A stretch of DNA of 64,000 bases from Immundisolibacterales bacterium. Lineage in GTDB: Bacteria > Pseudomonadota > Gammaproteobacteria > HK1. The stretch is taken from positions 124,001 to 188,000 of the forward strand of contig JAPOPW010000023.1 of the NCBI GenBank assembly GCA_026712715.1, read 5' to 3'. Every line of letters starts with the position of its first letter. The first letter of the stretch is position 1. Under the pieces are notes generated by a model. It was not told the origin of the DNA, ran no database searches, and saw only the letters and a list, made by a program, of their open reading frames with translations. The position numbers and the translations under genes were made by a program. This document shows, one piece after another, positions 25,797-48,796 of the stretch.

Positions 25797-27983
25797 ATGA
25801 GTCAATCGCGAGTACGTTGTCGCCTTGCCGTGGATGTCGGCGGGACCTTCACGGATGTGGCCCTCGAGCTCGGCGCCGGCGGTGGCGTGGTCACCGCCAA
25901 GGTGCTGACGACGCCGCATGCTCCGGAGGAAGGGGTGGTCGCGGCGGTCGGGCAGGCAATCCGCGAGGCGGGGGTCGGTGCCGGTGACGTCGGCCTGCTC
26001 ATCCACGGGACGACCCTTGCGACCAATGCGCTCATCGAACGCACCGGGGCGAAGACCGCGCTCCTCGTAACGGAGGGTTTCCGGGACTCGGTCGAAATGG
26101 CCCTCGAGAACCGGTTCGAGCAGTACGACATCTCCATCGACCGGCCGGCTCCCCTCGTGCCGCGGCACCTGCGATGGCCGGTCACCGAGCGGATGAACCA
26201 TGTGGGCGAGGTGCTGGTTCCTCTCGACGAGCGTTCGGTGCGGGCGCTCCTCCCCCGCTTCGAGCGGCACGGGATCGAGGCGATCGCGGTCGGCCTGCTT
26301 CATTCCTACGCGAATCCGGGCCACGAGCAGCGGGTCGGGGAGATCCTCGCCGGCGCTTTGCCGGACGTCCGCATCACGCTCTCGAGCGAGGTGTGTCCCG
26401 AGATCCGGGAGTACGAACGCCAGTCGACGGCCTGCGCGAACGCCTACGTCCAGCCTCGGATGTCGGGTTACCTCACCCGTCTCGAGGCCGAGCTCCGTGC
26501 TCTCGGCCTCGCGTGCCCGCTTCTCCTCATGACTTCGGGGGGCGGCCTCACCACCCTCGCCAACGCGACCCGCTTTCCCATCCGGCTCGTCGAGTCGGGA
26601 CCCGCCGGCGGCGCGATACTCGCGACGGAGATCGCCCGCGAGTGCGGCGACGAGAACGCGGTCTCCTTCGACATGGGCGGGACGACGGCCAAGATCTGCC
26701 TCATCGACGGCTACGAGCCGCAGTCCACTCGGACCTTCGAGGTGGCGCGGGCCTACCGCAACCTCAAGGGGAGCGGCCTGCCGGTGCGCATTCCGGCCAT
26801 CGAGATGGTCGAGATCGGGGCCGGGGGCGGGTCCATCGCGGCCATCGACGGGATGGGCCGCCTCGACGTGGGTCCGGCGAGCGCGGGAGCCGATCCGGGG
26901 CCGGCCTGCTACGGACACGGCGGCCAACATCCCACCGTGACCGACGCCGACGTCGTGCTTGGCCGCATCGGTCCCGACGATTTCGCGGGAGGTTCGATCC
27001 GGCTCGACCCGGTTCGAGCGCGCAATGCGATCGGAAATGCGGTGGGAGAGCCGCTCGACCTCGCCGGTCCGCTCGCGGCGCTCTCCATCTCCGAGATGGT
27101 CGACGAGAACATGGCGAACGCGGCCCGGGTCCACGCCGTCGAATGGGGCAAGGACATTTCCGCCCGCACGATGATTGCGTTCGGCGGAGCGGCGCCGCTG
27201 CACGCGGCCCGCCTCGCCCAGAAGCTCGGCCTTCGCCGCGTGATCGTGCCGGCCGGAGCGGGAGTCGGCTCCGCAATCGGGATGCTGCGCGCGGCGGTGT
27301 CCTACGAGGTGGTGCGAAGCCGCTACGTTCGCCTTGCCGAGTTCGACCCGGGGGTGGTGAATGCGCTGCTTGGCGAGATGAACGAGGAGGCGCGCGCGGT
27401 CGTCGTGGCCGGGGCCGGAGACGCGGAGCTCGAGGAGGTCCGGCACGCATTCATGCGCTACGTCGGCCAGGGGCACGAGATCGTGGTGCCGCTGCCGGTG
27501 CGGACGCTCGAGACAGGCGATGGCGAGACCCTCGCGGCCGCGTTCGACGCCGAGTACGCCCGCCTCTACGGCCGCACGATTCCAGGGCAGGAACGCGAGG
27601 TCCTGAGCTGGACCCTGACCATCACGGCGCGAAGGGAGCCGTCGCCCGAAGGCGACCCTTCCTCCGTGAATGCCGGCGTACCTCGTGCGCCGGCGGCGCA
27701 TTCCGGGGCCCACCACCCTTGCGCGGACGCGGCTTTGGACCGGACCGCACCGGCCGAGCCCCTGGCGGGGACGGACGGCGCCCGCCACCTGTTCGATCCG
27801 GTGCTCGCCGACTACCGGGGCGCTGCGGTATACCGGCGCGAGACGTTCGATCCCCTGGACGACGTAATGGGGTCGGCGGTAATCGTCGAGGATCAGACCA
27901 CCACCGTCGTGCCGGAGGGATTCCAGGTCTCCGTCAATGCGTTCGGCCATCTCGTCCTCGAACGCACGGACGGATCGGCCTGA
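25797..27983 (+). CDS. hyuA: Hydantoinase A / oxoprolinase-family ATP-binding subunit (third copy)
   Basis: A 728-residue HyuA-family protein with GGTFTD (15-20), HGTTLATNAL, TSGGGLTTL, ESGPAGGA, DMGGTTAKICL and IGAGGGSIAAID. TTAK in place of the TSAD of the other two copies puts it in a different subgroup. A low-complexity insert around residues 615-660 (Ala/Pro/His-rich) precedes the C-terminal domain and is absent from the other copies. GGAG lies 12 bases before the ATG. A TAGAAT box at 25721-25726 could serve as a -10, but no matching -35 is seen. The stop falls inside a tandem repeat shared with the start of hyuB. Confidence 0.9.
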   Translation: MSQSRVRCRLAVDVGGTFTDVALELGAGGGVVTAKVLTTPHAPEEGVVAAVGQAIREAGVGAGDVGLLIHGTTLATNALIERTGAKTALLVTEGFRDSVEMALENRFEQYDISIDRPAPLVPRHLRWPVTERMNHVGEVLVPLDERSVRALLPRFERHGIEAIAVGLLHSYANPGHEQRVGEILAGALPDVRITLSSEVCPEIREYERQSTACANAYVQPRMSGYLTRLEAELRALGLACPLLLMTSGGGLTTLANATRFPIRLVESGPAGGAILATEIARECGDENAVSFDMGGTTAKICLIDGYEPQSTRTFEVARAYRNLKGSGLPVRIPAIEMVEIGAGGGSIAAIDGMGRLDVGPASAGADPGPACYGHGGQHPTVTDADVVLGRIGPDDFAGGSIRLDPVRARNAIGNAVGEPLDLAGPLAALSISEMVDENMANAARVHAVEWGKDISARTMIAFGGAAPLHAARLAQKLGLRRVIVPAGAGVGSAIGMLRAAVSYEVVRSRYVRLAEFDPGVVNALLGEMNEEARAVVVAGAGDAELEEVRHAFMRYVGQGHEIVVPLPVRTLETGDGETLAAAFDAEYARLYGRTIPGQEREVLSWTLTITARREPSPEGDPSSVNAGVPRAPAAHSGAHHPCADAALDRTAPAEPLAGTDGARHLFDPVLADYRGAAVYRRETFDPLDDVMGSAVIVEDQTTTVVPEGFQVSVNAFGHLVLERTDGSA

Positions 27984-28082
27984 TTGAAGGAGAATGCGCA
28001 ACATGGACGCAATTGACCGAATCCGACGGAACGGCTTGATTGGAGGAGCATGCGCAACATGAACGCACTTGACCGGATCCGG
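27969..28082 (+). repeat. Tandem direct repeat, 56-bp period, spanning the hyuA stop and hyuB start
   Basis: Positions 27969-28026 match 28025-28082 at 50 of 58 sites without gaps. Each copy contains a purine-rich ribosome site (AAGGAG or GGAGGAG) followed by ATGCGCAACATG and the first codons of hyuB. The first copy is out of frame with hyuB (56 is not a multiple of 3): from its ATGs the reading frame stops at 28060-28062, overlapping the true start. It looks like a duplication of the translation-initiation region, with the upstream copy decaying. Confidence 0.85.
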
Positions 28083-29795
28083 ATGCAGATCCAGTGGAAC
28101 CGGCTGCTCTCGGTCGTCGAGGAGCAGGCCCAGACCCTGGTCCGCACCGCCTTCAGCACCTCGGCGCGCGAAGCCGGCGACATCTCCGCCGGCGCCTTCG
28201 ACACCACCGGCCGGATGCTGGCCCAGGCGGTGACCGGCACCCCGGGCCACGTGAACGCGATGGCCGCATCGGTGAAGAGCTTCCTCGAGAAGTACCCGCT
28301 CGAGGCGATGGAGGAGGGCGACGTGTTCCTCACCAACGATCCGTGGCTCGGCACCGGTCACCTCAACGACTTCACCGCCGTGACCCCGACGTTCCACGGG
28401 GGCCGGATCGTGGCCCTCTTCGCCTCCACGACCCACGTGGTGGACATCGGCGGTCGCGGCTTCGGGCCGGACGGACGGCAGGTCTACGAGGAAGGCCTCA
28501 ACATCCCGATCCTGCCCCTCGCGAAGCGCGGCGAGTTCAACTCCCTCGTGCTCGAGATCGTGCGTGCGAACGTCCGCAACCCGGTCGAGGTCGAAGGCGA
28601 TCTCTACTCGCTCGCGGCCTGCAACGAGGTCGGGGGGCGGCGCCTCGTCGACATGATGAACGAGTTCTCGCTCTCGGACCTCGACGACATTTCGCGCTAC
28701 GTGATCGACGCGTCGAGGGAGGGAATGCTCGCCGAGGTCCGTGCCCTCCCGCACGGCACGTACCGGAACTCGATGCGGATCGACGGCTACGAGCGCGAGC
28801 TCGACCTCGTGGCCGCGGTCACCATCGACGAGACGGGACTCGCCGTCGACTTCGACGGCACATCCCCGGTGTCGAGCTACGGCATCAACGTGCCGATCAC
28901 CTACACCGAGGCGTACGCGAGCTTCGGTGTTCGCTGCGTCATCGGCTCGCGCATTCCGAACAACGCGGGGTCGCTCGCCCCGGTGCGGGTCACCGCGCCG
29001 GTCGGCACGATCCTCAACGCCCCGCATCCCTGCGCGGTGACCGGGCGGCACGTCATCGGGCAGATGCTCCCCGACGTGGTGCTGGGGTGCCTCGGACAGA
29101 TCATTCCCGACCGGGTACCGGCCGAGGGCACCTCGTGCCTCTGGAACCCGGTCCTGCTCGGTGGGCACGGCATGACCGGCGACGACCTCCAGAGCGGGCC
29201 GGCGTTCGCGATGAACACCTTCCATACCGGGGGGACCGGAGGGCGCCCGGGAAAGGACGGCCTCGACGCGACGGCATTCCCCTCCGGCGTGCGCAACACC
29301 CCGATCGAGGTGAACGAAACCATCGCGCCGCTCGTCTTCTGGCGCAAGGAGTACCGCGAGGACTCCGGCGGTCCGGGCGCGTTCCGGGGAGGCACCGGAC
29401 AGATCATGGAGGTCGCTCACGCGGGCGACAACGCGTTCGCGATCAACTCGATGTTCGACCGGGTGGTCCATCCGCCCCGGGGCCGGAACGGCGGCGGCGC
29501 CGGTCAGACGGGGCGCCTCTACCTCAAGTCGGGCGCGGCCGAGTTCAGGGGCAAGGGGCGCCAGACCATCCCGCGGGGCGAGCGCCTCGTGCTCGAGATG
29601 CCGGGCGGGGGCGGGCTCGGCGATCCCCTCGAACGGGACCCCGAGCGGGTGGCGGACGATGTCCTGAACGGCCTCGTCTCGGCGGAGCGTGCCCTGGCCG
29701 ACTACGGGGTCGTCATCGGAGCGGACGATCGCCTCGACCGCGAAGCGACAGTGAGCGAACGGCACGCGCGGCGAGCCCCCGCCGCCGCGGACTGA
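28059..29795 (+). CDS. hyuB: Hydantoinase B / oxoprolinase-family beta subunit (third copy)
   Basis: A 578-residue HyuB-family subunit with RIRMQIQWNRLLSVVEEQAQTLVRTAFS, TNDPWLGTGHLNDF and a closing GGGGLGDPLERDPERV, at the normal length of the short HyuB type. Two in-frame ATGs compete: at 28050 the GGAGGAG ribosome site ends one base away, too close, while at 28059 the spacing is ten bases, so I prefer 28059 (protein begins MNALDRIR). A duplicated, out-of-frame copy of this start lies 56 bp upstream. The partner hyuA ends at 27983. Confidence 0.88.
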   Translation: MNALDRIRMQIQWNRLLSVVEEQAQTLVRTAFSTSAREAGDISAGAFDTTGRMLAQAVTGTPGHVNAMAASVKSFLEKYPLEAMEEGDVFLTNDPWLGTGHLNDFTAVTPTFHGGRIVALFASTTHVVDIGGRGFGPDGRQVYEEGLNIPILPLAKRGEFNSLVLEIVRANVRNPVEVEGDLYSLAACNEVGGRRLVDMMNEFSLSDLDDISRYVIDASREGMLAEVRALPHGTYRNSMRIDGYERELDLVAAVTIDETGLAVDFDGTSPVSSYGINVPITYTEAYASFGVRCVIGSRIPNNAGSLAPVRVTAPVGTILNAPHPCAVTGRHVIGQMLPDVVLGCLGQIIPDRVPAEGTSCLWNPVLLGGHGMTGDDLQSGPAFAMNTFHTGGTGGRPGKDGLDATAFPSGVRNTPIEVNETIAPLVFWRKEYREDSGGPGAFRGGTGQIMEVAHAGDNAFAINSMFDRVVHPPRGRNGGGAGQTGRLYLKSGAAEFRGKGRQTIPRGERLVLEMPGGGGLGDPLERDPERVADDVLNGLVSAERALADYGVVIGADDRLDREATVSERHARRAPAAAD

Positions 29796-47121: not shown

Positions 47122-47356
47122 CGCACGACTCCTCATCCGGTCAATTCACAAGGACTGCCGCGAGTATAGGGGAGGCGGCGCGCGGCGCTGCCCGGCCATG
47201 TCTTGGCGACCTTCCCGCTCCGGCCGACGAACGAGGTTGACTGCGGTCCCCGCCGATGCGGCGGCGTCGAGTCGGCACGCTCTTTCGTTCGTCCTTCGTG
47301 CGCCGGGAAACGGAGCCGGGCGGTGAACGGGGCGGCGCGCCGTGGGGAGTCGCGGC

Positions 47357-47587
47357 AGCCGGTTCGTTATGCTTGTCGCTTTCCCGCCGGTCCGTCCGGC
47401 GGGGGCATTCGGGCCGCGACGGCGGCGGGGAGACAGGAGCGGGGCGCGGGAACCGGGGGGCGGGCGGTGGCGGGGGCGGGGCGCCGGGGGGGGCGGCGGG
47501 AGCCGTTTCGTTTTGCTTGCCTCTTCCCCGCCGGTCCGTCCGGCGGGAGCATTCGGTCCGCGACGGCGTCGGAGAGACATGAGCGAG
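47357..47587 (+). repeat. Duplicated leader segment before MFS gene (144-bp offset), each copy with a hairpin
   Basis: About 87 bases at 47357-47443 match 47501-47587 without gaps. Each copy contains an 8-bp stem (CCCGCCGG/CCGGCGGG, 5-base loop) and ends in a ribosome-site-like GGGGAGACA or GGAGAGACA. In the second copy the next bases are ATGAGC, the true MFS start (47579); in the first the corresponding codon reads AGG, so no start remains. The offset is a multiple of three, so the repeat also reads as a repeated peptide in an open frame upstream, but that stretch is Arg/Gly/Pro-rich and I regard it as untranslated. Nothing else is visible in 47122-47356. Confidence 0.8.
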
Positions 47588-48796
47588 GCGAGCGCAGGAG
47601 CGCGACGAAAGCTGACCCTGGCGGCGTGCTGCGCGACGCACAGCGTGCAGGACGGCCTCACCGCCTCGATCTACATTCTGCTCCCGATACTCGCCCAGGC
47701 ATTCGGTCTCAGCTTCGCCCAGGTCGGACTGGTGCGCGCCGCGCACAGCGGCGCGATGGGGCTGCTCGAGCTTCCGGCCGGCGTGCTTTCCGAGCGGTTG
47801 GGGCAGCGCCGGCTGCTTGCGTTCGGACTCCTTTGCGCCGGCACCGGCTACGTCACGGTCTCGATGTCGGGCGGGTTCACCGGGCTCCTCATCGGGCTGT
47901 GCATCGCGGGGAGCGGAGCCGCGTTCCAGCACGCGCTCTCTTCGTCGCTCGTCAGCGCCACCTTCTCGGGCCCGGACCGGCGTACCGCGCTCGGTGCGTA
48001 CAACTCGAGTGGCGACGCCGGAAAGCTCCTGTTCACGGGTCTTCTCACCACCTTGCTCGGCGCCGGGGCGGCCTGGCCGCAGGTCGCGGCCGGGTACGGG
48101 TCGCTCGCCATCGCGGCGGGAATCGTTCTCTTTCTCCTGCTTCGCACGCTCCGGGTCGGCGGTCCGGCGGCCGTTGCGGAACGGCGGTCCCCGCTTGGTG
48201 GCGCGGATTGGGGCATCCGCAATCGCAGGGGGTTCGCGACTCTCGCCGCAATCGTGCTGCTCGACCTCGCGGTGCAGGACGCATTCCTGGTCTTCATCGC
48301 CTTTCTGATGGTGGCCAAGCAGGTACCCGTCGGACTCGCGGGATTCGCGGTCGTGCTGACCCTCGCCGGCGGGATCGCGGGAAAGTTCGGGTGCGGGCTG
48401 CTGGCCGCGCGAGTGGGGCCGGTACGCGCCCTCGTCGCGGTCGAGATCGTGAGCGCGGCCGCGATCCTGGCCGTCCTGGCCGCACCCGCCATGGTCGCGC
48501 TGTGCCTGTTGCCGCTCGCCGGGCTCGTGCTGCAGGGCTCGTCCTCCATCACTTACGGGACGGTGGGCGACCTCGTCGACGAACGTCGGCAGTCGCGGGG
48601 GTTCGCCCTCGTCTACACGCTCTCGAGCGTGGCATCCATCGTCGGTCCGGTCGGATTCGGGCTCGTCAGCGACCGCTTCGGCCTCGAGGCCGCAATGCTG
48701 GTCATGGCCTTCGTCGTCGTGCTGCCGGCGCCGCTCGCCCTGCTGCTGCGCGGGCCGCTTCGCCAGGTCCGGCTTTCGCAGGCGAGCACCGCCTGA
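47579..48796 (+). CDS. MFS transporter
   Basis: A 405-residue, 12-helix permease. The loop 2-3 signature lies near residue 65 (GVLSERLGQRRLLAFG), and a repeat of it occurs in the second half (GLVSDRFGLEAA). The N-terminal pattern THSVQDGLTASIYILLPILAQAFGLSFAQVGL resembles fosmidomycin-resistance-type exporters, so drug or metabolite efflux is plausible. ATG 47579 has GGAGAGAC immediately upstream; the longer open frame (from 47342) covers the duplicated leader and is unlikely to be translated. Confidence 0.85.
   Translation: MSEASAGARRKLTLAACCATHSVQDGLTASIYILLPILAQAFGLSFAQVGLVRAAHSGAMGLLELPAGVLSERLGQRRLLAFGLLCAGTGYVTVSMSGGFTGLLIGLCIAGSGAAFQHALSSSLVSATFSGPDRRTALGAYNSSGDAGKLLFTGLLTTLLGAGAAWPQVAAGYGSLAIAAGIVLFLLLRTLRVGGPAAVAERRSPLGGADWGIRNRRGFATLAAIVLLDLAVQDAFLVFIAFLMVAKQVPVGLAGFAVVLTLAGGIAGKFGCGLLAARVGPVRALVAVEIVSAAAILAVLAAPAMVALCLLPLAGLVLQGSSSITYGTVGDLVDERRQSRGFALVYTLSSVASIVGPVGFGLVSDRFGLEAAMLVMAFVVVLPAPLALLLRGPLRQVRLSQASTA

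Follow-up and report, generated by a model that had tools for sequence, protein, structure and literature searches.

The junction between a hyuA-type and a hyuB-type gene in the analysed 64,000-nucleotide stretch of Immundisolibacterales DNA (the window) carries a tandem duplication of 56 bp, which is probably an ordinary, lineage-specific event that left an incidental leader frame between the two genes. Two adjoining copies fill positions 27969-28080 and are identical at 49 of 56 sites in an ungapped comparison; the match at 50 of 58 columns given in the original prediction was reproduced in the same way. TRF delimited the repeat as 27969-28081, with period 56, 2.0 copies, 87% matches and a score of 177. 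The segment is a short tandem duplication in the plain sense, with two similar copies lying adjacent and head to tail. Only two near-tandem repeats with a period of 25-299 and at least 75% identity were present in the whole window, this one and another at approximately 47317-47590, so the 56-bp repeat lies far beyond chance and is real.

Each unit runs from the last four hyuA codons and the stop, through a Shine-Dalgarno motif and two ATGs, into the first HyuB codons. The presence in both copies of a ribosome site, a start and the first hyuB codons, as predicted, was confirmed (ATGCGCAACATG at 27994-28005 and 28050-28061). The original description as a duplicated ribosome-binding site and start codon was correct but too narrow, as the unit also holds the hyuA tail and is a whole gene junction rather than a start alone. 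The features of the region are:

25797..27983, + strand: hyuA-type gene (Hydantoinase_A / oxoprolinase family), from Pfam PF05378, PF01968 and PF19278 and translation; its TGA at 27981-27983 lies within copy 1.
27969..28024, + strand: copy 1 of the 56-bp unit, with the live hyuA tail (DGSA) and stop, then a Shine-Dalgarno motif followed by a hyuB-like start that is out of frame.
27987..27992, + strand: Shine-Dalgarno-like AAGGAG of copy 1, 10 nt 5′ of ATG 28003.
28003..28062, + strand: candidate upstream frame of 19 codons (22 if read from 27994), the stop of which overlaps hyuB ATG 28059 as ATGA.
28025..28080, + strand: copy 2 of the 56-bp unit, with a dead hyuA tail (DGTA, then TGA 28037-28039), the live Shine-Dalgarno motif and the hyuB start.
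28042..28048, + strand: Shine-Dalgarno-like GGAGGAG of copy 2, within the upstream frame and 10 nt 5′ of ATG 28059.
28059..29795, + strand: hyuB-type gene (Hydantoinase_B family; PF02538, E 1.8e-144), with the likelier start at 28059 and the longest open reading frame from 28050.

In this arrangement hyuA takes its tail from copy 1 and hyuB takes its start from copy 2. The leftover middle consists of the hyuB-like start of copy 1 and the dead hyuA tail of copy 2, with its old-frame stop at 28037-28039. The two products were assigned to the broad Pfam families Hydantoinase_A and Hydantoinase_B only. Annotation of the pair as a caprolactamase (CapA/CapB) was rejected, because the NCBIfam equivalog scores reach 452 and 193 bits where each model requires 1000.

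Because 56 leaves a remainder of 2 on division by 3, the start in copy 1 is out of frame and its frame closes over the hyuB ATG at 28059. Translation confirmed this frame, MRNMDAIDRIRRNGLIGGACAT followed by the TGA at 28060-28062, as originally described. The second ATG of each copy (28003 and 28059) is preceded by a Shine-Dalgarno motif at an aligned spacing of 8, counted against the generally known anti-Shine-Dalgarno sequence; before the first ATG (27994 and 28050) the motif is too close, at an aligned spacing of -1 to 2. This spacing favours 28059 over 28050 as the likelier hyuB start and 28003 as the start of the upstream frame. The 22-codon frame that had been proposed is indeed open from 27994, but a 19-codon frame at 28003-28062 is more likely by the same measure. 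That segment has the form of a leader ORF (uORF), a short frame with its own start and Shine-Dalgarno motif that ends over the next start. In both genus relatives the motif stands at an aligned spacing of 6 before the first ATG (MSNM.. or MRNM..), and compared with them both window copies lack a few bases between motif and first ATG, a loss that, being common to both copies, most simply predates the duplication.

We compared the junction across relatives, the genus of the window comprising the source genome and two others, G001 and G002. Comparison with close relatives, which had been suggested as a check, indicated that the duplication is lineage-specific, as it is missing from both. At the G001 junction a single copy is present and the spacer measures 22 nt (L011, from this genome, and L039 have the same junction DNA). 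In G002 the spacer is 205 nt long and has no 56-bp repeat; any self-similarity in it is weak, no more than 71% over 41 bp (L010, from this genome, and L040 again have the same junction DNA). A DNA search with 27940-28110 against 15 genomes, the source genome included, gave one match each in G001 and G002, from 28050 on, and neither the upstream frame nor its start was found conserved in these two genomes. The 205-nt spacer of G002 (L010 / L040) is GC-rich, and its length against the 22 nt of G001 indicates that the hyuA-hyuB junction is quick to change within the genus.

A wider HyuB search of 55 genomes (source genome included) matched 36 of them. The loci with a HyuB match then numbered 117, of which 113 were scanned for repeats near the hyuB start and 4, at an edge or partial, were left out. 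The hyuB start was repeated only in the window's own two loci, and a family-wide repeated junction was not found among the 113. Two other loci reached 85% in the scan: L037 (offset 24, 87% over 30), where the repeat lies off the hyuB start, and L096 (58 bp, exact). The latter lies at 2846-2965 of JAKLKW010000008.1, from an alphaproteobacterial MAG. Its tandem repeat takes in the stop of hyuA and the spacer but misses the hyuB start, and is an event independent of that in the window. A search of the source genome found no copies of the unit elsewhere, only HyuB-like relatives. This genome (G000, about 5 Mb) has at least 24 HyuB-like places, all 24 of the candidates scored out of 43 having matched; the count is likewise at least 24 in G001, G002 and G016. 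In L041-L045, from MAGs labelled Alphaproteobacteria, HyuB is 87-89% identical to that of the window and no adjacent hyuA was found; the genus relatives are labelled Gammaproteobacteria, and transfer, naming or binning differences could each account for the discrepancy.

Spacing was compared over 62 distinct junctions with an adjacent hyuA and a found ATG, window included; the remaining 55 loci were duplicates, lay at edges, had no adjacent hyuA or had no start found. The two genes are separated by 25 nt or less in 59 of the 62, and 28 have a 4-base overlap. The three longer spacers are those of the window (66 nt to the first ATG), L096 (133 nt) and L010 (205 nt).

The two copies have 7 mismatches over 56 sites, or 12.5% (95% interval 5-24%). 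At four-fold sites in a codon alignment, the hyuB of the window differs from that of L039 at 111 of 332 and from that of L040 at 116 of 333 (33-35%). Set against about 34% between species, 12.5% between copies points to a lineage-specific but not very fresh duplication, which looks younger than the species split yet not very recent. The original claim of a recent duplication thus stands as to lineage, relatives being single-copy, and only in part as to age. The polarity of the differences was judged by eye; for the two in the hyuA tail this was because the MAFFT junction alignment misplaces the L039 hyuA tail. With L039, L040 and more distant starts as the reference, copy 1 has changed at 27987, 28006, 28012 and 28020 in its spare start and copy 2 at 28036 in its dead hyuA tail; the change at 27975 affects the live hyuA tail, and the 27993/28049 difference is ambiguous. 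Within the hyuB-codon part of the unit all three differences are copy 1 changes relative to the relatives, and two of the three alter the amino acid. Decay of the upstream copy, as had been suggested, fits the five of six polarised changes that fall in the dead middle, but the excess is not significant (one-sided sign test, approximately 0.11, by hand; 0.23 for five of seven, with the ambiguous difference counted against).

The reading that we favour is that a single 56-bp tandem duplication over the hyuA-hyuB junction arose after the split from the known genus relatives. With hyuA retaining the tail in copy 1 and hyuB the start in copy 2, neither protein was damaged, and on this reading the middle became spare DNA gathering substitutions. 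The spare out-of-frame start is most likely a harmless leftover giving a very short extra frame; with its Shine-Dalgarno motif kept, it may be translated to some degree as a predicted 19-codon leader overlapping the hyuB start, and the overlap itself would be a by-product of the duplication length of 56. Both the neutrality of the spare DNA and the translation of the leader are what we infer from the arrangement. In a simulation of 2018 duplications of 30-90 bp at the junction, each including the Shine-Dalgarno motif and ATG, an upstream frame with the exact ATGA overlap arose in 664 (33%), so the overlap does not point to selection. Several points run counter to an incidental leftover. Despite the 12.5% divergence, copy 1 still has both its ATGs and a six-base match to the Shine-Dalgarno motif, the frame has stayed open up to the overlap (over a very short sequence), and one polarised difference, 27975, falls in the live hyuA tail. 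Moreover, with 59 of 62 junctions at 25 nt or less, a gap of 66-75 nt should entail a loss of coupling and so give selection something to act on.

In an alternative that we consider unlikely, the upstream frame would act as a relay that keeps the genes coupled across the longer gap. Ribosomes ending hyuA would restart at ATG 28003, 19 nt past the stop, and translate 19 codons, passing over the second Shine-Dalgarno motif; termination at the ATGA would then be followed by a further restart, on hyuB. Coupling is described as strongest at short spacing, and short upstream frames as able to deliver ribosomes, in the sections consulted of PMC12548453 and PMC4833913, and those of PMC5972666 describe AUGA overlaps in coupling; such published behaviour makes a relay possible. 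The anatomy allows it, with a motif at an aligned spacing of 8 before both 28003 and 28059 and an ATGA overlap, and a tight or overlapping arrangement of the genes, as found for 59 of the 62 junctions (28 of them at -4), suits it. However, the overlap that suggested a retained uORF coupling hyuA termination to hyuB initiation appears in roughly one in three simulated duplications and no signal of selection accompanies it: the arrangement is present in one genome only, two of three changes in the peptide part alter amino acids, the gap in the sister genome G002 is 205 nt and the duplication is absent there, and hyuB has its own Shine-Dalgarno motif. It is quite doubtful that the duplication turned, in one step, a directly spaced pair into a three-part relay of hyuA, 19-codon leader and hyuB with coupling kept, which would be a natural way for a bicistronic-design leader to originate.

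Two further explanations concern the repeat itself, and we regard both as very improbable. One is an assembly artefact in an organism with a single copy, conceivable for a genome in 82 contigs that is probably a MAG. Against this, mismatches stand at 7 of the 56 sites, and the longest exact run common to the copies is 12 bases; the usual assembly word is longer than that, and with no common 13-mer a k-mer graph is not expected to create or tie the copies. The other holds that the original duplication was of 57 bp, between CGGA tetramers (27967 and 28080), that it gave HyuB an in-frame N-terminal extension, and that later loss of a base, or a sequencing error, at 28024/28025 made the upstream frame. 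The tetramers do stand at both ends at the right distance, and one base (N) inserted at the join opens the frame from 28003 into hyuB, but a 56-bp duplication whose ends overlap by one base (G) would suffice without any later event.

Tandem repeats as such are not rare in this genome: with a period of at least 25 and a score of at least 50, they occurred at 10 places in 464 kb sampled (the window plus 400 kb from three contigs, overlapping rows merged by eye). Of the 10, the 56-bp repeat alone had a period not divisible by three, and multiples of three at the other places would fit a location of most of them within reading frames. The second tandem duplication of the window, at 47317-47590, has a 144-bp period and 84% matches and ends at 47578, where an MFS-type gene has its likely ATG; same-genus genomes match this region only from about that ATG on. 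Lineage-specific duplication before genes has thus occurred at least twice in this window. Searches for regulatory elements at the junction gave no Rfam match with E up to 1 in 27500-28500, no promoter-like site for an internal promoter, and as a terminator one weak minus-strand site against a mean of 0.3 (sd 0.6) in shuffles.

The arrangement can be set beside three known systems. An engineered bicistronic design places, after a promoter, a Shine-Dalgarno motif, a short leader cistron holding a second Shine-Dalgarno motif and an overlapping stop and start. The junction resembles it in the motif, the short leader with a second motif inside and the stop/start overlap; unlike that design, it is natural and apparently accidental, and it lies between operon genes instead of following a promoter. 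It also shares with ATGA/TGATG termination-reinitiation coupling (PMC12548453, PMC5972666, PMC6728339) the overlap of an upstream stop with the next start, in this case that of hyuB, as ATGA, although here the upstream frame is a putative 19-codon by-product of duplication and not a gene. In Neisseria elongata, short tandem duplications were selected in rpmH and near rpsC, and from the part of that report consulted (PMC8758062) they are likewise single head-to-tail copies of a short stretch, some intergenic beside a gene; those duplications are fresh and laboratory-selected, whereas the 56-bp repeat is 12.5% diverged and is not known to have any effect. A literature phrase search found no paper on duplicated or tandem Shine-Dalgarno motifs, ribosome-binding sites or start codons, and one on hydantoinase genes found none on hyuA-hyuB translational coupling in the portions of text it reached.

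Together, these results make the junction a clear example of how a duplication over a gene boundary can leave both proteins whole and yield an overlapping upstream frame free of cost, and they warn that ATGA-overlapping frames are not to be taken as selected. If the relay were true, such duplications would offer a plausible route by which leader ORFs originate between operon genes.
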